Shown here one piece after another: positions 18,336-33,759 of a stretch of DNA of 64,000 nt. The stretch is from assembly GCF_002210295.1 (NCBI RefSeq), contig NZ_MWQH01000006.1:124001-188000 (forward strand), in the 5' to 3' direction. How positions within the stretch are numbered: the stretch's first letter is position 1; every line of letters starts with the position of its first letter. The DNA comes from Fibrobacter sp. UWB5. Lineage in GTDB: Bacteria; Fibrobacterota; Fibrobacteria; Fibrobacterales; Fibrobacteraceae. The position numbers and the translations under genes were made by a program. The notes beneath the pieces are model-generated. The model saw only the letters and a list, made by a program, of their open reading frames with translations, made no database searches and was not told the origin of the DNA.

Positions 18336-19748
18336 ATGGATCTACAGGAATATGTCGATCAGTTCGATTCGATGACCTGTATCATGTCTGTTGAAAAAAA
18401 ATCAGACGGGTCTTACGGGAAAATACGAATCGAAGTGGGAAATCCTGCATATGTTGCTTCTTTTGACAAAGCAAACGCCCCCATAGCCATGAAAGACGAG
18501 AATGGATTTGTTCCCGGATGCGAATACACGACCTATCTCCCGAAGGATTTAAACTTTGAACATTTTGTTGTAGCCAGCGCAGTCAACAAAAAACCAATGC
18601 ACGCCTACATTCATCCGGACCGTTTTCCAGTCTGGTTCAATATTTTCAGCCTGCCACTGAATATCGACGATCCAGACAAGTATTACTGTACTTACACCCA
18701 AGAACTGTCGAGCGAAGCAAATACCGAGCAGATGACCAATTTGTCGGCCAAGACAACTTCGCAAGTCTTGCAGACCTGCATCAAGCTTCGTAGTTCTACG
18801 AATTTCCTGAAAACGATGGATGAAATCATCCATGATATTCGCATCGCTTGCGAAGCAAGCTATTGCTGTGTCATGCTTACTGATTTTAAAGAAAGGACCT
18901 GCAGTCTTTTAAGCGAAGATATTGCGGTAGGCGTGCCTCAGCATTCCCTCAAGAGTTTTTTGGACGACTCCTTTATTGAATATGCCCAAACCTGGCTTAA
19001 AACCATTGACGGAAGCAATTGTCTAGTCATTCAAGACAAAAACGACATGAACGAAGTCAAGCTGCGCAATCCCAATTGGTACAGGTCGTTAAAAAGCGCC
19101 GAAGTGGAAAGCATTGTTCTGTTCCCGCTTCAGTACAATGGCGAGACGGTCGGATTCATTTGGGCGACCAACTTCGACACCAAGGATACCGACCGCATTA
19201 AAGAAACTCTTGAACTTACGACATTCTTCATAGCCTCAGAAATTGCCAACTATCAACTTCTACAGCGCCTTGAAATGCTGAGTTCGACAGACTTGTTGAC
19301 GGGAGTCATGAACCGTAACGCTATGAACAACCGAGTTCTCCGTATGGTTACCGGTCGCGAGCGCAAGCCTGAATCGATTGGCATTGTCTTTGCCGACTTG
19401 AACGGGCTTAAACCTGTTAACGACAAGGAAGGCCACAACGCAGGAGACTGCCTGCTGAAAGAAGCCGCCTTGATTCTCAAGTTGACGTTCGAAGGGTGTG
19501 AAATTTACCGAGCCGGTGGCGACGAGTTCGTGATTATCGCCTTGGACAAACCTAGAAAAGAGATTGAATCGCTCGTCGAAAAAATCCGGAAGGACTCGGC
19601 GGACCCCCAAAATGTCAGCTTTGCGGTAGGATTTTACTATGATGACAAGGGTGGTGACATCCGTGTTGCAATGCGCGAAGCCGACGCCCTTATGTACGAA
19701 GACAAAAAACAATACTACGACCGATTCCCTGAATTAAGACGAAAATGA
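18336..19748 (+). CDS. GAF-GGDEF diguanylate cyclase, first of a tandem pair
   Basis: This 470-aa cytoplasmic protein is predicted to make cyclic di-GMP from two GTP. About 150 N-terminal residues form a sensor-like domain, a GAF-like domain spans about 160-305, and the GGDEF domain covers about 310-465. The active motif AGGDEF (GGDEF at 394-398) and substrate motif FADLNGLKPVNDKEGHNAGD are intact. The inhibitory-site position reads FEGC instead of RxxD, so product inhibition should be absent. There is no membrane segment. Its stop overlaps the ATG of the next gene by four bases (ATGA), so translation is coupled to a full-length paralogue. Confidence 0.88.
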   Translation: MDLQEYVDQFDSMTCIMSVEKKSDGSYGKIRIEVGNPAYVASFDKANAPIAMKDENGFVPGCEYTTYLPKDLNFEHFVVASAVNKKPMHAYIHPDRFPVWFNIFSLPLNIDDPDKYYCTYTQELSSEANTEQMTNLSAKTTSQVLQTCIKLRSSTNFLKTMDEIIHDIRIACEASYCCVMLTDFKERTCSLLSEDIAVGVPQHSLKSFLDDSFIEYAQTWLKTIDGSNCLVIQDKNDMNEVKLRNPNWYRSLKSAEVESIVLFPLQYNGETVGFIWATNFDTKDTDRIKETLELTTFFIASEIANYQLLQRLEMLSSTDLLTGVMNRNAMNNRVLRMVTGRERKPESIGIVFADLNGLKPVNDKEGHNAGDCLLKEAALILKLTFEGCEIYRAGGDEFVIIALDKPRKEIESLVEKIRKDSADPQNVSFAVGFYYDDKGGDIRVAMREADALMYEDKKQYYDRFPELRRK

Positions 19749-21151
19749 AAAAAGAAGAATTGCAAAAATTCGTTGAATCTTTTCCGACGATGACGAGTAT
19801 TCTATCGGTAGAAAAGCGTACCGATGGAAGTATCGGGACTATCCGCATCGAAGCGGGTAACCAGATCTATATCAAATCCATGGAAAAAAAAGACGAGGAC
19901 GGCAATTCCGTATTCACCCAGACTTTTGTTCCGGGCTCCAATTATGAACGGTACATGGAAAAGGAACTGAACTTCGAGAAGTTCGTTTACCAGAGCGCCA
20001 TTCTGCATAAACCGGTTCACGCTTACATTCGCCCGGAGCGCTTTAATTTTTGCATTAATCAGTTCTTAATGCCCGTCGATGTCGAAGACGACGAAAAGGG
20101 CTATTGCGTCTTTACCCTTGAAATCCAGCCCGAAGAAGACCTCGACACTTCGACAAGGCTTTCTTCTGAAATCTCGCAGAACGTCCTCAAGGCATGCATC
20201 AAGCTGCGCGGTTCAAAGGATTTCAGGAAAACCATGGACGAGGTGATTGAAGATGTACGCAAGATCTGCGATGCAAAATCCTGCAGCGTGTTGCAGACCG
20301 ATTTCAAGGAACGAACCTGCTCCATTTTGACTTGTGCCCGAAGGCAAGACATGCCTCCGCTGGATCTTGATAGGGTATTCAACAACGAATATATCTATAT
20401 CGCGGAATCCTGGATAGAAACACTTAAAGGCAGCAACTGCCTGATTATCCAGAACGAAGCGGACATGGAAATCATTCGCCAGAGAAACCCGAACTGGCAT
20501 AAAACAATGATGTCTGCCGGTGTCGAAAGCCTGGTTTTGCTGCCGTTGATGCACAACAACGAATTTGTCGGATTCATTTGGGTGACCAATTTCGACACCT
20601 CCAAGGTCTTACGCATTAAAGAAACCCTTGAACTGGTTACCTTCTTTATTGCCTCCGAAGTGGCCAGCTACAAACTGGTGCAGCGCCTTAGATTCTTGAG
20701 CAACGAAGACTTGTTGACCGGCGTGAACAACCGTAACGCCATGAACAACAGGGTGCTTCAATTTGTAAGCGGCGAAGTCCATTACAGGACTGTTTCCGTG
20801 ATTTTCGCCGACTTGAACGGACTAAAGCCCATTAACGACAACGAAGGCCATAATGCCGGCGACGCCCTCTTGAAGAGCGCCGCAGAGATCTTGAAGCAGA
20901 CCTTCTCGGATTGTGAAATCTACCGTGCAGGTGGCGACGAATTTGTCGTCGTGGCAATCGATGTTCCCAAGGAAAGCCTTGAAGCTAGAGTCGAAACGCT
21001 CCGCAAAAAATCCAAGGTCAAGGGCAACGTGAGTTTCGCTATCGGGTTCTACCACGACGAAAACGGGGGAGACGTCCGTAAGGCGATGCGCGAAGCCGAT
21101 GCCCTCATGTACGAAGACAAGAAAGAGAACTACGCCCACAGTCGTGGGTAA
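19745..21151 (+). CDS. GAF-GGDEF diguanylate cyclase, second of a tandem pair
   Basis: This 468-aa paralogue aligns end to end with the preceding gene (same N-terminal domain, GAF-like domain and GGDEF), evidence of a local duplication. The catalytic motif AGGDEF (GGDEF at 396-400) and IFADLNGLKPINDNEGHNAGD are intact. The inhibitory-site position reads FSDC, so again no RxxD. The N-terminal domains differ most, which suggests different signals feeding the same output. It overlaps the upstream gene by four bases and is followed by a strong terminator. Both domain calls are firm; the signals sensed are unknown. Confidence 0.88.
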   Translation: MKKEELQKFVESFPTMTSILSVEKRTDGSIGTIRIEAGNQIYIKSMEKKDEDGNSVFTQTFVPGSNYERYMEKELNFEKFVYQSAILHKPVHAYIRPERFNFCINQFLMPVDVEDDEKGYCVFTLEIQPEEDLDTSTRLSSEISQNVLKACIKLRGSKDFRKTMDEVIEDVRKICDAKSCSVLQTDFKERTCSILTCARRQDMPPLDLDRVFNNEYIYIAESWIETLKGSNCLIIQNEADMEIIRQRNPNWHKTMMSAGVESLVLLPLMHNNEFVGFIWVTNFDTSKVLRIKETLELVTFFIASEVASYKLVQRLRFLSNEDLLTGVNNRNAMNNRVLQFVSGEVHYRTVSVIFADLNGLKPINDNEGHNAGDALLKSAAEILKQTFSDCEIYRAGGDEFVVVAIDVPKESLEARVETLRKKSKVKGNVSFAIGFYHDENGGDVRKAMREADALMYEDKKENYAHSRG

Positions 21152-21163
21152 AAGCCCCGATTC

Positions 21164-21330
21164 ATGATACAAGTTTTAGCCCTCGGATGATCTCCGAGGG
21201 CCTTTTTTTGCGTTATTTTATGACTTTTATCAATGGATTTTGCATGTTTGTATCATGAAAAATCTTTAAATCCGATACAAAAACGCCGGTTTATGTAGTT
21301 TTTAAAAGAATTTTTAACTTTTTGTATCAT
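21164..21330 (+). promoter_or_regulatory. Cluster of TTGTATCAT motifs before the TIGR02147 gene
   Basis: TTGTATCAT occurs at 21248-21256 and 21322-21330, its complement ATGATACAA at 21164-21172, and GATACAA (complement of TTGTATC) at 21274-21280. The last copy ends six bases before the -35 box at 21337. These may be operator sites for a regulator, possibly the TIGR02147 protein itself; that link is inferred. Confidence 0.45.
21179..21210 (+). terminator. Rho-independent terminator after the GGDEF pair
   Basis: GCCCTCGGA (21179-21187) pairs with TCCGAGGGC (21193-21201), followed by seven Ts. Confidence 0.9.
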
Positions 21331-21336
21331 AGTCTA

Positions 21337-21365
21337 TTGACTTTGTTAAGAAAAGATTATATATT
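21337..21365 (+). promoter_or_regulatory. Strong promoter, leaderless configuration
   Basis: TTGACT (21337-21342), exactly 17 bases, then TATATT (21360-21365). The start point would fall at about 21372, next to the A of the ATG at 21373, so the message should have little or no leader. No Shine-Dalgarno sequence is present. Confidence 0.7.
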
Positions 21366-21372
21366 AAGAAGC

Positions 21373-22212
21373 ATGAAACCTGTGATGGAATACACAAGCT
21401 ACCGCGTCTATATTCGCGACTATTATGCCGAGCGTAAGGAACGCTCCGGTTTTACATGGCGCGACTTTGCAAAGGCCGCAGGCTATTCCTCACCTGTGTT
21501 TTTGAAGCTTGTTTGCGACAGTAAGGCAAACTTGAGCGAAGCGGGTATCGAACGCGTCGCCTCTGCCATGGGACTTGTCGGTGTCGAACTGCAGTATTTC
21601 AGACACTTGGTCGCCCTCAATCAAGAAAAATCCTCTGCCGCAAAGAAAAAGATTTTTTCCGAAATGCGCGCTATTGCCAACGAGAATTCTTTTGTGCTCG
21701 TGGGCGAAGAGCAATACGACTATTACGGAAGCTGGCTGAATCCGGTGCTTCGCGAAATGGCCCCGCGCCTGGATGGCGCAACACCCGCCCAGATGGCGGG
21801 GGAGCTCGTCTTTGAAAGCGATGCCGCCCACGTCAAGAGTTCCTTGAAGTTGCTCGAAAAAAACGGATTCCTCAATAAAGACGAGCAGGGCCATTACAGC
21901 CAGACCAATCGCTCCATAACTACAGGCAACCTCGATGTCGCCTCGTTCGCTATCCGTGAAATGCACCGTCAAATGGGCGAGCTCGGCGTTCAAAGCCTTG
22001 ACCAGGTTCCGGTCAAAGAACGTGACATCTCCGGCCTTACCATTGGCATTTCCGAAACCGCCTACGAAAAGATTACTAAAGAAATTGCCGAATTCCGTCG
22101 TCGCATCAGCTCGATCGTGATGGAAGATTCTGGCGAAGAACGCGTTTACAGACTGAACGTGCAGTTGTTCCCCCTCACCAATACCTTGCCCGAGGAGGAG
22201 CACCATGACTAG
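21373..22212 (+). CDS. TIGR02147 family protein, probable regulator
   Basis: This 279-aa protein belongs to the Fibrobacter paralogous family TIGR02147 (DUF4423). It begins MKPVMEYTSYRVYIRDYYAE and then has FTWRDFAKAAGYSSPVFLKL, a helix-turn-helix-like element. Winged-helix-type text follows in the middle (ESDAAHVKSSLKLLEKNGF). The family is thought to act in transcription control but its targets are unknown. The ATG at 21373 is chosen over an upstream TTG because it sits exactly downstream of a TTGACT/TATATT promoter. Its last eight bases overlap the following lipoprotein gene, so the regulator and lipoprotein are translated together. The role is inferred from family and context. Confidence 0.82.
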   Translation: MKPVMEYTSYRVYIRDYYAERKERSGFTWRDFAKAAGYSSPVFLKLVCDSKANLSEAGIERVASAMGLVGVELQYFRHLVALNQEKSSAAKKKIFSEMRAIANENSFVLVGEEQYDYYGSWLNPVLREMAPRLDGATPAQMAGELVFESDAAHVKSSLKLLEKNGFLNKDEQGHYSQTNRSITTGNLDVASFAIREMHRQMGELGVQSLDQVPVKERDISGLTIGISETAYEKITKEIAEFRRRISSIVMEDSGEERVYRLNVQLFPLTNTLPEEEHHD

Positions 22213-23566
22213 GCATTATAAAATAAGTCTTGGCCATTGGGCTGTTGCTTCTTTCGCATTCACGCTATCTGCATGCGGAGTTTTTTGGGCTGGTGGCGTA
22301 GACGAGCAACAGAATACGGTAGCAGGTGTTGCGGACGAAATCGAAACCGAAAATAGTGCCAACATCAAACCGAATACCGATCCCAAAAATTGCTACACAA
22401 GAAATGATACCACCTATTGCATCCACGTTGCCGATGCAAATCTTCCTATTGGTGATACGCTTGTTCAATCGGTGGATTCTGTTCATCTCGATCCGGTAAA
22501 CGTTGACCGACATGACTCAGCCCTTACTCCGACCCCTATTGTCGATGTTACTCCTGTTAAATCCTCCTATTCCATCAAGGGTTACGTAGCAACAGACAAA
22601 GGAACCACCAAATCTATCGAAGTTGCTTTAAAAGATAGCACGTTCGTCGTACAGGGTAATTCAGACGGTTCGTTTGAATTGGCAATTCCTGAAGGAACCC
22701 GTTCGTTCATCGTAAAATCCGTGACCACAAACGGATACGTTTCTGAATCCAATTACTATTTGGTATATGGTTCAGGCATTAATGTCGTGGGTCCTGTTCC
22801 GACAAGCGTAGCAGACGATGTTGACGCCGAAGATCTTGAAGCTCCGCCCGTTCAGACTGTCGAAATGCCGCCCGTAAGCGGTATGACGCCTGGTCCGGGC
22901 CCGGTTTTTGATCCACCGGACACCTCCGCGACAACAATTCCTCCGCAGGATACGACGGACAACAATTCCGATGCAGTCATCCTTTTGCCGAACGATCCTG
23001 ATTACGGTCTCGTATATCACTGGAGCGAATCTAACATGCCGGCAAACGAAAGCGTCGTAAACGATTCTCTCGTCTTTGCTGAAGGTCTTGAAGAACTCAC
23101 TTTCGAAATCACCTTTAAGGTAACGTCCTTCCCTGAAACTCTCAGGTTTAGCAAGAACGTTTTCGGTAAGAAGGGCTTGTTCAACCTCGCCATTACAAAA
23201 TCGTCATGCCATGTCCAGGAACCCGCTTTCGCTTTCTTTATCGGGAACGGATTCGATTTCACCTCTTGCCATGACAAGGCTGTCGTATCTTCGGCAACGA
23301 TTGAAGTCGGTAAAGAAATCACCGTGACCGGCGTTTGGGACGGTAAGCACGTGATGCTCTACAAGGACGGCTTCCTGATTGCCGAACAGATTCTTACCAA
23401 GATTGCAGACATCAACTACATTACTGCCGACAACATTTTTGAAACGCCGTTCATATTCGGCGATAAGGACTTGGATATCTCTATTATAGATGCGCGATTG
23501 GGGAACAAAGCGATCAGTTCTGCCGACGTCTTGTACCGGCACTATCTAAAAGGAGGCGCACAATGA
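22205..23566 (+). CDS. LamG-like lipoprotein in the TIGR02147 operon
   Basis: This 453-aa predicted lipoprotein has lipobox FTLSAC near residue 24, followed by an acidic low-complexity stretch. A small beta domain (SYSIKGYVATDKGTTKSIEVALKDS) resembles carboxypeptidase regulatory-like folds. A Pro/Thr-rich linker at about 215-260 leads into a C-terminal concanavalin/LamG-like domain (FEITFKVTSFPE, ITVTGVWDGKHVMLYKDG). GAGGAGG lies before the ATG, inside the upstream gene. It sits between a TIGR02147 protein and a PAS protein with overlaps on both sides. A surface carbohydrate- or ligand-sensing role is possible but unproven. Confidence 0.7.
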   Translation: MTRHYKISLGHWAVASFAFTLSACGVFWAGGVDEQQNTVAGVADEIETENSANIKPNTDPKNCYTRNDTTYCIHVADANLPIGDTLVQSVDSVHLDPVNVDRHDSALTPTPIVDVTPVKSSYSIKGYVATDKGTTKSIEVALKDSTFVVQGNSDGSFELAIPEGTRSFIVKSVTTNGYVSESNYYLVYGSGINVVGPVPTSVADDVDAEDLEAPPVQTVEMPPVSGMTPGPGPVFDPPDTSATTIPPQDTTDNNSDAVILLPNDPDYGLVYHWSESNMPANESVVNDSLVFAEGLEELTFEITFKVTSFPETLRFSKNVFGKKGLFNLAITKSSCHVQEPAFAFFIGNGFDFTSCHDKAVVSSATIEVGKEITVTGVWDGKHVMLYKDGFLIAEQILTKIADINYITADNIFETPFIFGDKDLDISIIDARLGNKAISSADVLYRHYLKGGAQ

Positions 23567-24054
23567 TGACAGAGAACTCTATCGAATTGGCCTACTTTGA
23601 GGTCAACCAACACGGCCGCCTTTTGAGCGGAAACAGGCGCTTTTGCCGTATGTTCGGTTTTGAGCCTTCGGAACTGCAGTGGCATTACGTTACCGACCTG
23701 TACCGCCATGCAAGCGACTGGAACGCATTCCGCAATGACACCGTGAATGCCAGCTTCAACATGCGTATGCGCAATCGTCGCGGACGCAGTTTCGACTGCT
23801 GCATCACTCGTGAAATCATCCAGAATGCAGACGGCGAAATCGTATTCCGTAATACGGTACACAAGGTGGGCGAGGCTCGCGGCACTACTACCTCGACCAC
23901 TCCGCTTTCCATGGTATTTCTCACGAAGTGCGCTGATTGCGGCGCGCAGATCCGCGTGACATCCGTTGCCGAAACAAGGCTTCGCATGTTGTGCAATCAA
24001 TGCGCTGCAAAGGCATTCCCGGAGACGTACTATACGAAGAGTGCCCAAATGTAA
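23563..24054 (+). CDS. PAS domain protein with C-terminal zinc ribbon
   Basis: This 163-aa soluble protein has a PAS fold at about residues 5-105 (LAYFEVNQHGRLLSGNRRFC, RGRSFDCCITREIIQNADGE), followed by a four-cysteine zinc-ribbon-like end (KCADCGAQ ... MLCNQCAAK). There is no histidine kinase, GGDEF or other output domain, so output is probably through protein contact or nucleic-acid binding by the ribbon. The ATG at 23563 overlaps the stop of the lipoprotein gene; an ATG at 23566 is equally possible. It is the last gene of the three-gene overlapping operon and is followed by a long structured 3' region. Confidence 0.75.
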   Translation: MMTENSIELAYFEVNQHGRLLSGNRRFCRMFGFEPSELQWHYVTDLYRHASDWNAFRNDTVNASFNMRMRNRRGRSFDCCITREIIQNADGEIVFRNTVHKVGEARGTTTSTTPLSMVFLTKCADCGAQIRVTSVAETRLRMLCNQCAAKAFPETYYTKSAQM

Positions 24055-24292
24055 GCCGAAGTTGCCAGGTGTAAACTGGCAATGAAGGCGAAGAAACTGA
24101 GCTGATTGGGAGTTCAGTAAGACCGAAAAAAGGCTTCGGGAGTAAGCCAAAAGCCAGAGTGCGGCATTCGTGAGCCTAAGCGGCTCAGAATAAACGAGCC
24201 GCGAAGGCGAGAGCGAGGCGATGTCACATTCTTGTTAGTGCGATAGAGCCGAGCGGTCATTAAAGGAGAACGAGCAGGGAAGGAGAAAAAAG
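24055..24292 (+). ncRNA. Long structured 3' region or small RNA
   Basis: Between the PAS gene and its terminator lie 238 purine-rich bases without an open frame but with several hairpins. They are TTGCCAG/CTGGCAA (24062-24068 with 24076-24082), GGCTT/AAGCC (24132-24148) and GCGGCTC/GAGCCGC (24180-24186 with 24196-24202). I see no match to tmRNA, RNase P or 6S. It may be a stable 3' UTR, a released small RNA or decayed repeat sequence. Confidence 0.35.
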
Positions 24293-24323
24293 GCGACCTC
24301 TAAGATTTAGAGGTCGCTTTTTT
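24293..24323 (+). terminator. Strong rho-independent terminator
   Basis: A perfect 11-bp stem GCGACCTCTAA (24293-24303) with TTAGAGGTCGC (24307-24317), then six Ts. It ends the TIGR02147 operon. Confidence 0.92.
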
Positions 24324-31482: not shown

Positions 31483-33759
31483 TTATCTTGCAATGCGGAT
31501 GCTCTGGATTTTGCCGGAGGTACGGTTGCGTAGGATGTACACGCCAGAGTTCTTCACTTCGTTGGAAGTCTTGAGGATTTCCTTGGCGGCATCGAAACCG
31601 TAGGCCGAAAGTCTGCCCAGGCGTACTCCATGCAAATCAAGGACGTCGTAATTCTGGAGCGTATTTTGCTCTAAGTGGAGCTTGCCGCCGATATTCCCGT
31701 TATTTTTATCGCTAATGGCAATCGTCTGTTCAAAAGCAGCTGAATCCAACGAATCCAGCGGATGTCTAGGAAAGCCTTTGTCGTACCACATGTTCTTGGC
31801 GTCGTAGAAGTGTTCGTTGAAATATTCCTTGAGCCAGGTCATTGCAGGGCGGTCTACCCCATCCTTGATAAGTCCGGGATTCGATTCATCTGCCCATACA
31901 CTGGCTCCGACTTCGTAAAGGTAGCCCCAAAGGTTTACACCTGCAATGTATTCCGATTCCATAAAGAGCGGGATATGTTCGGAATAGCATGCTTTTTGGA
32001 GGCTGTCGTTATTCGTACCGACGCTATATTCAGTGATAAACAACGGAAGCTTTATTTTGTCGTAGATTTCCTGAATGCCGTTTTGAATGCGTTCGGAGCT
32101 AAAACATTGCGCTTCCGGGCCGGATCCTTGGACGAGTGTGGCGAAAATGATTTGGTACGCATCGACGGGTGCGCCCTGCTCCTGGATTTTTTTGATAACT
32201 TCGGCGCCTTGATTGTTTTTCCAGCCGTAATCATCGTAGTCGTTCAAAGTTAGGATTGCTTTGGGCCAGCGCTTGCGAGCCATCTTGAACGCCGTGGCTA
32301 TGAATTTGTAGTCATCATTGTCGCCACCGAGAGCTTCGATGATTTTATTGCCGCTCCCGAATCCAGAATGATAATGACCATAGCTGTCGCGGGAACCTCC
32401 GTTTACCACCTCGATCATGTAAGGTGCGGGGTAACGCATGGCAGCTTTGTCGAACCAGTTTTCAACGGCTTTCTTGGTTTCGTCTATATCAAGGTTGTAG
32501 AGCCAGCTGGGGGTATGGGTTCCCCAAAGCAAGCTACGGAAATTGAAATTTACTTTGTTTTTTTGCGCCCAATAGTAGATGCGGTCGCAGCCAGACCAGT
32601 CGTACTCGCCACGCACTTTTTCAATGACGGCCCAAGAGCACGCATTTTCAGGCGAAACCTGGTTCCAGTAGGTTTGAAAATCCTCGGGGATTTCTTGCTT
32701 GTCGGCAATCATGTTCCCGAAGAACTTGGTCGCTCCATCGGCAAGGCCACGGCCGTAACGGGCGTTCGGATTCTTGAAATATTCCTTGAGCCAGGTCAAT
32801 GCCGGGCGTTCCACACCGTCTTTGATAAGGCCGGAGTTGCCTTCTGTAAGCCATGTCTTGCCATAAACGTAGCCCCAAAGGGTAATGCCCTTCACATATT
32901 CTGTTTCCATCAACAAGGGAATATGTTCTTGGTAGCATTCCTTTTGGAAATCGTCATTGTTGGTTCCGACATCGTATTGGGTGATGTATATCGGGAGGCC
33001 GGTTTGCTCATGGGCTTCATGAAGAACGCGCTTGAGTGTCGTAGAACGGAGGCATTGATAACCAGAGCCTTGTAGTGTTGTTTCGTGGAACTGCATTCCG
33101 TAAGCATCGACGGGAGCGCCCTGGGCCTTGATTTTCTTAATTAGGTCAATCCCTTCGTTCTTTTGCCACATGATTGTGTTGTAGTCGTTATAAATCAGGA
33201 TCGCCTCAGGCCAACGCTCACGGGCCATTTTGAAAGCGGTTACCACAAATTTGTAGTCGCCATCGTCGCCGCCGAGAGCCTCAACCAGTTTGGAAGAGGT
33301 AAAACTGGAGTGGTAGTTTTTGCCCGATTTGACCGCCTCATTGACCACTTCAATCATGTCGAGGTCGGGGTAATGTTCTTTAACCGCATCAATCCAATCA
33401 GTCCAAGCCTTTTTTGTTTCGTCAATATCGAGTTTGATCAACCACTGCGGGTTTTGCGAACCCCACAAAAGTGTATGGAACGTGAAATATGCGTTGTTTG
33501 TTTTTGCCCAGTTGTAGCCGAGGTCGCAACCCGACCAGTCGTACTTGCCGCGTTCTTTTTCGACATGGCCCCAGTTGCATTCATATTCGACGGTAATTTG
33601 GTTCCAGTAAGTTCCAAAGTCGTCAGGGATTTCGCCAAAGGTAGTGGTGTTGCCTAAAAATTTGGCCGCTCCATCGGCAAGGCCTACATCAGCAAAAGAA
33701 AATGTCGATGCAGCAAGGGTTAATGCCAATGTCTTAAAGATTTTTGATATTCCACTCAT
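31483..33759 (-). CDS. Tandem GH10 xylanase-like protein with reciprocal loss of catalytic glutamates
   Basis: This 758-aa exported protein has signal MSGISKIFKTLALTLAASTF then SFA, two GH10-type domains (about 26-330 and 338-665) and a sorting-type C-terminal tail. GH10 needs an acid/base Glu in VVNEA and a nucleophile Glu in ITE.D. Domain 1 keeps Glu141 (VVNEAV) but has Gln261 (YITQYDV). Domain 2 has Gly454 (VVNGGS) but keeps Glu577 (FITEYSV). Both have LLWG where xylanases usually have VWH. Domain 2 has also lost the Q-x-H of the strand-6 motif (YQIIFAT for YGMQFHE). NDY and the late Trp/RPA.TWLKEY motifs remain. Neither domain should work as a normal retaining xylanase; xylan binding is the likeliest surviving role. 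Confidence 0.85.
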   Translation of the reverse strand: MSGISKIFKTLALTLAASTFSFADVGLADGAAKFLGNTTTFGEIPDDFGTYWNQITVEYECNWGHVEKERGKYDWSGCDLGYNWAKTNNAYFTFHTLLWGSQNPQWLIKLDIDETKKAWTDWIDAVKEHYPDLDMIEVVNEAVKSGKNYHSSFTSSKLVEALGGDDGDYKFVVTAFKMARERWPEAILIYNDYNTIMWQKNEGIDLIKKIKAQGAPVDAYGMQFHETTLQGSGYQCLRSTTLKRVLHEAHEQTGLPIYITQYDVGTNNDDFQKECYQEHIPLLMETEYVKGITLWGYVYGKTWLTEGNSGLIKDGVERPALTWLKEYFKNPNARYGRGLADGATKFFGNMIADKQEIPEDFQTYWNQVSPENACSWAVIEKVRGEYDWSGCDRIYYWAQKNKVNFNFRSLLWGTHTPSWLYNLDIDETKKAVENWFDKAAMRYPAPYMIEVVNGGSRDSYGHYHSGFGSGNKIIEALGGDNDDYKFIATAFKMARKRWPKAILTLNDYDDYGWKNNQGAEVIKKIQEQGAPVDAYQIIFATLVQGSGPEAQCFSSERIQNGIQEIYDKIKLPLFITEYSVGTNNDSLQKACYSEHIPLFMESEYIAGVNLWGYLYEVGASVWADESNPGLIKDGVDRPAMTWLKEYFNEHFYDAKNMWYDKGFPRHPLDSLDSAAFEQTIAISDKNNGNIGGKLHLEQNTLQNYDVLDLHGVRLGRLSAYGFDAAKEILKTSNEVKNSGVYILRNRTSGKIQSIRIAR

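Follow-up and report, generated by a model that had tools for sequence, protein, structure and literature searches.

Autoregulators such as GalR and lambda CI act at their own promoters through paired operators and DNA looping. Sets of parallel pairs, each made of one regulator and one surface protein, are described for SigI/RsgI of Clostridium thermocellum, and the pairs are said to sense different substrates (PMC12203970). Here we compare with both systems a locus in a 64,000-nucleotide stretch of the Fibrobacter sp. UWB5 genome (contig NZ_MWQH01000006.1, positions 124,001 to 188,000; the whole stretch is called the window below). The locus holds three overlapping genes, which encode a regulator of the family TIGR02147 (T), a predicted lipoprotein (LIP) and a small protein with a PAS domain (PAS). 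The source genome comprises 3.36 Mb in 17 contigs, and genes were called as the longest open reading frames (ORFs).

T and its relatives resemble SigI/RsgI in that regulators and surface proteins are matched one to one in several parallel pairs (PMC12203970). The molecular parts differ: T is a helix-turn-helix (HTH)-type protein and not a sigma factor, its partner is a lipoprotein and not a membrane-spanning anti-sigma factor, and no proteolytic parts are linked to T-LIP-PAS. NCBIfam and Pfam gave neither T nor LIP a sigma-factor or anti-sigma match, which leaves both outside the SigI/RsgI class. SigI/RsgI is nevertheless the nearest idea to the T-lipoprotein pairs. As with GalR and lambda CI, the T promoter has two matched candidate sites set 70-75 bp apart, close to an integral number of helical turns; the difference is that both candidate T sites lie 5' of the promoter and that sister copies carry words of their own.

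The literature that we searched, with subscription papers, preprints and the TIGR02147 curators' text outside the search, yielded no function for TIGR02147 (Fsuc_second), and DUF4423, the other family to which T belongs, appears in the accessible part of the published record as one Bdellovibrio protein in a proteome table. Titles and abstracts on Fibrobacter or Fibrobacteres regulators, lipoproteins and paralogous families, again with subscription papers and preprints outside, gave no regulator-lipoprotein pairs. Such pairs go unmentioned in the accessible sections of the genome paper on Fibrobacter succinogenes S85 (PMC3079729) and under a term search of the S85 expression paper. The same sections of the genome paper leave the transcriptional control of Fibrobacter cellulase genes unanswered and note few regulators nearby (PMC3079729).

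Results

T, LIP and PAS form a conserved unit

The three genes are as follows (window coordinates).

21373..22212, plus strand: T, TIGR02147/DUF4423 regulator of 279 residues; ATG at 21373, stop at 22210-22212; predicted XRE-like HTH (about 7-85), winged helix (about 109-183) and C-terminal helices
22205..23566, plus strand: LIP, lipoprotein of 453 residues; ATG at 22205, stop at 23564-23566; Cys24, tag AGGVDEQQNTVAG, central beta domain, LamG-like jelly roll at the C-terminus
23563..24054, plus strand: PAS, 163 residues; ATG at 23563 (or 23566); one PAS domain, C-terminal CxxC...CxxC ribbon

Read directly from the sequence, the T and LIP frames share 8 nucleotides (nt) and the LIP and PAS frames share 4 nt (ATGA), with GGAGG 6 nt 5' of the PAS start. 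These overlaps, of 8 and 4 bases, are those of the original prediction, which also took the three genes for one unit and would have given that idea up had they not been conserved together in related genomes. A gene-neighbourhood survey found them together. LIP matches were present in 66 of 101 genomes of the family, from 9 of 11 genera; PAS lay 3' of LIP at all 66 places and T lay 5' at 65, the contig ending at the 66th (L119), where no T is visible. In a named collection there were 57 PAS loci, all from Fibrobacter or relatives and including the cultured F. intestinalis ATCC 43854 (L339) as well as Candidatus Fibrimonadales and Fibrimonadaceae records. Three were at contig ends, and T was upstream of PAS in all 54 that had room. 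A lipoprotein-sized gap of 656-1720 nt separates T from PAS in 52 of the 54, and T stands directly before PAS in the other 2. The tag pattern of the paired lipoproteins (see below) was matched in 44 of the 52 gaps; in the other 8 it failed or matched something else. The family-set and named-set counts are not independent, because the sets overlap in part.

The genus set has 30 PAS loci, of which 3 (L061, L063 and L064) lack LIP and have T directly before PAS. When the window genes between 12 and 36 kb were followed through 27 neighbourhoods, only T (24), LIP (23) and PAS (20, from an all-against-all comparison) were widely recurrent, and no flanking gene was broadly shared. The cassette is single-copy and kept across genera; three genomes with one TIGR02147 gene keep just this copy (L179, L180 and L182). 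A PAS profile (E <= 1e-12) matched 67 of 136 genomes of the phylum, all in the Fibrobacter family and none outside, and a PAS match was present in 55 of 80 genus genomes. The closest PAS match among named records, in a search from which own-genome records were possibly excluded, is in a metagenome-assembled genome that bears the label F. succinogenes (L293; 99% identity). We conclude that T, LIP and PAS are a real unit.

TIGR02147 genes are paired with lipoprotein genes across the phylum

The source genome has 24 TIGR02147 genes. For 23 of them the same-strand gene that follows directly starts at -64 to +22 nt and encodes a predicted lipoprotein (22 called by script and number 24 by eye, from FWAC); at the remaining one, a divergent lipoprotein gene starts just 5'. 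Some of the overlaps (-56, -62 and -64) probably do not reflect true starts, because the genes are longest-ORF calls. With 23 of 24 paralogues directly preceding a lipoprotein gene, we reject the earlier description of T as an orphan regulator.

The same arrangement was found at 30 of 30 further loci, one from each of 30 genus genomes, where a lipoprotein-type gene lies 3' of the TIGR02147 gene. Outside the genus we took 30 TIGR02147 loci from 16 genomes and scored the 28 that had room: a lipoprotein-type gene is downstream in 25, a tagged lipoprotein gene is directly upstream in one (L196), and two (L175 and L176) have no lipoprotein partner. Three exported partners among the 25, from other families of the phylum (L174, L187 and L199), have arginine immediately before the cysteine (VRC, SRC and HRC), an atypical lipobox; either the motif is a lipobox variant or these proteins are not lipidated. 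TIGR02147 genes occur in 129 of 136 phylum genomes (at least 80% completeness), often in dozens of copies. The pairing of TIGR02147 genes with lipoprotein genes spans the phylum Fibrobacterota.

TIGR02147 genes also stand in rows in relatives, about 3 kb apart (G046:C1:1284686-1295885; G003:C1:83261-90638; G077:C1:640509-647310 and 722467-729174), as expected for repeated regulator-lipoprotein pairs.

The paired lipoproteins are alike at their start, with a lipobox cysteine followed within a few to about 25 residues by the tag AGG.SEETN.(V/I)AG; the typical form, AGGvSEETN, comes right after the lipidated cysteine. Columns C1, G8, E11 and N14 are invariant in an alignment of 39 LIP orthologues, and tag variants were found in regulator-lipoprotein pairs across the phylum. 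Searched against the source genome, a tag model gave 18 strong matches, 17 paired with a T-type gene and 1 unpaired (L215), and a weaker unpaired match (L218); the paired count is not independent, because the model was built on those 17. The unpaired L215 (G000:C4:93429-93584, minus strand) encodes a tagged lipoprotein (AGGVSAEENTIA) with no TIGR02147 gene within the 3.2 kb examined, and is possibly the orphan of a lost pair.

Beyond the tag, the 24 paired lipoproteins carry varied domains (Pfam, E <= 0.01): CarboxypepD_reg in 9, CarbopepD_reg_2 in 6, Laminin_G_3 in 5, Fib_succ_major and CIA30 in 2 each, and Pectate_lyase_4 and CBM_4_9 in 1 each. By kind of domain they resemble four envelope lipoproteins of F. 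succinogenes S85 (FSU_2817, FSU_1088, FSU_2134 and FSU_0627), which have carboxypeptidase-regulatory-like domains and were lower on cellulose than on glucose (PMC6851124).

The T promoter carries a candidate operator pair

Upstream of T we located the following elements, with positions given relative to the T start.

21163..21173, minus strand: operator-like copy CTTGTATCATG, inverted, at about -207
21247..21257, plus strand: candidate distal operator TTTGTATCATG, at about -124; position kept in orthologues
21274..21283, minus strand: partial inverted copy (GATACAAAAA), at about -99
21320..21331, plus strand: candidate proximal operator TTTTGTATCATA, at about -50; the -35 hexamer begins 5 nt on
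21337..21365, plus strand: sigma-70-type promoter TTGACT-17-TATATT, 10 of 12 consensus positions

Six promoter-like sites were found in the scanned region against 3.5 expected by chance, and in orthologues similar promoter elements adjoin the operator word. Since the -10 element ends 7 nt before the ATG, the T mRNA is probably nearly leaderless.

The operator word is both rare and conserved. Allowing at most one mismatch, TTTGTATCATG occurs at three places in the window, all within 21163-21331 (shuffle expectation 1.06). In the 3.36 Mb genome an exact TTTGTATCATR occurs at three places, each of them 5' of a TIGR02147 gene: two at this T and the third at -50 relative to sister number 9. The reversed control occurs at none. 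In 47 distinct sequences from upstream of cassette T genes, the word recurs at roughly constant positions. Among 51 T promoters of the named set with a usable start, TGTATC lies at -56 to -47 in 43, at -131 to -119 in 41 and at both positions in 40; ten control words of the same letters gave 0. Five of the 51, from Fibrimonadales-type records, have TGTATC at about -38 and about -60. Both sites are retained at the two T-PAS loci of the named set that have no lipoprotein (L301 and L302).

Several sister promoters carry matched pairs of their own, differing in word and about 72 bp apart. Matched words seen at sister promoters are TGTATAAT twice at sister 16, TGTGTTAT twice at sister 17, and the pair TGTAGCAC/TGTAGTAT at sister 11. 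Because AT-rich promoters make same-letter and reversed words poor controls, shuffle and swapped-partner controls were added. In the genome's own 24 promoters, four near-identical 9-mer pairs fell in the 70-74 bp spacing class and 0 or 1 in every other 5-bp class (mean of 300 shuffles 0.20, largest 2). In an earlier spacing test with a looser filter, no single spacing had exceeded 3 promoters. In 33 subfamily promoters, from which five orthologues of the window T were left out on purpose and for which 3 of 30 loci without a start codon were set aside, a TGT-TGT pair at 68-76 bp was present in 18 and absent at that spacing from 15. In nine of these pairs, at least 5 of the 6 letters that come next are the same; swapped partners gave a mean of 0.65, and 0 of 2000 reached 9.

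Predicted folds of the three proteins

T is a full-length member of TIGR02147 (278.8 bits, cut-off 50; residues 1-270 of 279) and also belongs to DUF4423 (116.1 bits, cut-off 30). In its structure model (mean predicted local distance difference test score, pLDDT, 86; predicted template-modelling score 0.68), residues 7-90 align with 3pxp_B (Z 8.8, root-mean-square deviation [rmsd] 3.1, 81 aligned) and residues 109-183 with 2oqg_C (Z 7.7, rmsd 2.7, 72 aligned); both Z scores are middling, and the XRE-like and winged-helix rows are consistent. The model thus combines an XRE-like HTH and a winged helix with helices at the C-terminus, which makes a DNA-binding role reasonable. T is probably dimeric. 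Searches for sequence relatives in the PDB gave none convincing for T and none for PAS.

LIP has a lipobox by pattern (FTLSAC24, that is, LSA-C24), with similar motifs in orthologues. Its model (mean pLDDT 66.6) is poor in residues 1-95 and in the linker 204-231. Residues 242-430 match the NanB lectin domain 4xog (Z 15.2, rmsd 2.5 A, 159 aligned) and the AbnA domain 5hp6 (Z 14.4, rmsd 2.5 A, 156 aligned). The C-terminal domain is thus modelled with a jelly-roll lectin fold, and in this respect (Z about 15) the predicted LamG-like character holds, although the Laminin_G_3 score of 18.6 bits falls below the Pfam gathering cut-off of 27.6. Clostridial neurotoxin binding modules were also among the fold matches, at about 10% identity, and we take them to reflect no more than the shared jelly-roll fold. 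The LIP orthologues are 19-77% identical to the window LIP, less well conserved than T and PAS, and the LIP of the window seems to have lost a first beta domain still present in its relatives.

PAS exceeds the cut-offs of PAS_9 in Pfam (31.4 bits, cut-off 27) and of S-box (28.1 bits, cut-off 22.9), and has no signal peptide. Its core has 17 invariant columns among 36 aligned members. Several of these members, in other genera, lack the four-cysteine ribbon; hence the zinc ribbon is dispensable, and we reject it as a core part.

Surroundings of the operon

Downstream, at 24055-24323, there is no supportable gene. The region holds a terminator-like stem and a dispersed repeat:

24293..24317, minus strand: terminator-like stem-loop 3' of the operon; the T-run falls on the minus strand

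The dispersed intergenic repeat lies at 24207-24261 (within 24055-24310); the genome has 20 further matches to it, 74-93% identical, with a core of about 50-55 bp. Upstream of T, two tandem overlapping GAF-GGDEF genes (18336-19748 and 19745-21151), alike in length and sequence, are apparently a duplication. Clear homologues of them adjoin the cassette in close relatives only. We rejected a cyclic di-GMP link through these genes: a terminator-like stem lies between them and the cassette, and clear homologues are present in 4 of 27 neighbourhoods, with weak ones (about 27-30% identity) in 2 more. A phage or defence origin was likewise rejected, PHROGs giving no match for T or PAS and PADLOC none for T, LIP or PAS. 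Farther on, at 31483-33759, is a xylanase-like gene that we take to resemble GH10; its ORF translation reads as seemingly two tandem copies of the catalytic domain.

Discussion

We consider it probable that T-LIP-PAS is a self-contained, autoregulated module in which T controls its own lipoprotein operon and PAS is likely a cytoplasmic modulator. T would recognise TTTTGTATC(A/T)T at -50 and -124, about seven helical turns apart, in its own promoter. Given a proximal site that ends 5 nt short of a good -35 box, and a -10 element that ends 7 nt short of the start codon, it is probable that T contacts RNA polymerase there, and the distal site, about seven turns off, may assist. Activation or looping-dependent switching would then be a more likely mode of control than simple occlusion. 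T, LIP and PAS would be made together from their overlapping, probably translationally coupled frames. LIP is the likely output, an envelope lipoprotein that may face outward and present a lectin-like jelly roll. PAS is the likely input, most likely modulating T, since it is without a signal peptide and is kept beside T even where LIP is missing. The roughly two dozen sister T-lipoprotein pairs would be parallel modules, several with their own matched operator pair.

A number of observations weigh against this account. The HTH assignment of T depends on middling Z scores (7 to 8.8) and a weak Pfam HTH match (E 0.058), because Foldseek gave no PDB match at E <= 0.001. The 12-mer TTTTGTATCATR, with one mismatch, has 37 places in the genome against 17 for its reversed control, so that T may have wider targets. 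By the criteria applied, the spaced pair is present in only 8 of the 24 own promoters and absent from 16; the architecture is thereby established for one subgroup only. As for PAS, 25 of 80 genus genomes wholly lack the gene, and the source genome has one for its 24 regulator-lipoprotein pairs; hence PAS cannot be a general input.

LIP could instead be the sensor, in line with the original prediction of a unit that reports surface contact with fibre: it would bind a polysaccharide at the surface and signal through a membrane protein to PAS and T, which would switch distant fibre-degradation genes, much as SigI/RsgI would in C. thermocellum. One regulator per lipoprotein would suit such a role, as would the varied carbohydrate-type domains in which paired lipoproteins end (Laminin_G_3, CIA30, CBM_4_9, Pectate_lyase_4 and Fib_succ_major) and the rapid evolution of LIP beside better kept T and PAS. 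However, apart from the signal peptide we noticed no membrane-spanning segment (by reading, not with a dedicated predictor), no extra partner gene recurs in the 27 neighbourhoods, and the exact operator occurs only at T promoters, a distribution that gives no hint of a distant regulon. In three genomes T and PAS also survive without LIP; these 3 of 30 PAS loci fit LIP as a regulated product at least as well as LIP as a sensor. We regard a sensor role as unlikely. Less likely still is that the pairs form a switching repertoire of surface lipoproteins, few expressed at once, in which T would turn its own pair on or off locally and no ligand would be specifically sensed. The 24 pairs of the source genome, the TIGR02147 rows a few kb apart in relatives, the fast evolution of the lipoproteins and operators that match within a pair while differing from one another would all be expected of diversification, but T-LIP-PAS itself is single-copy and conserved across genera, and its PAS gene favours sensing over random switching.

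The binding of T to the candidate sites is suggested by sequence, which would also allow a factor other than T to read the -50/-124 sites, their clustering at TIGR02147 genes being inherited from a shared ancestral promoter. The sister promoters are indeed related by descent. Yet the two sites agree within a promoter while differing between promoters, and where this T is the only TIGR02147 gene the -50/-124 arrangement becomes -38/-60 with the word kept; we hold another factor to be very improbable. Returning to T as the reader of its own operators, each T-lipoprotein pair would be built on a local autoregulator with a surface partner and operators of its own, a known kind of arrangement present here in many copies. 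More tentatively, and with considerable doubt, Fibrobacterota might maintain such insulated and hitherto undescribed regulator-lipoprotein pairs, each with its own operators and surface protein, throughout the phylum as an equivalent of SigI/RsgI, the tag serving as an address for regulator feedback or surface sorting.

For TIGR02147, the tagged lipoprotein partner, the candidate cognate operators and the PAS partner appear, from sequence comparison, to be new. With a partner, a promoter architecture and a candidate operator for the family, many anonymous genes per genome become parallel modules that can be tested individually.

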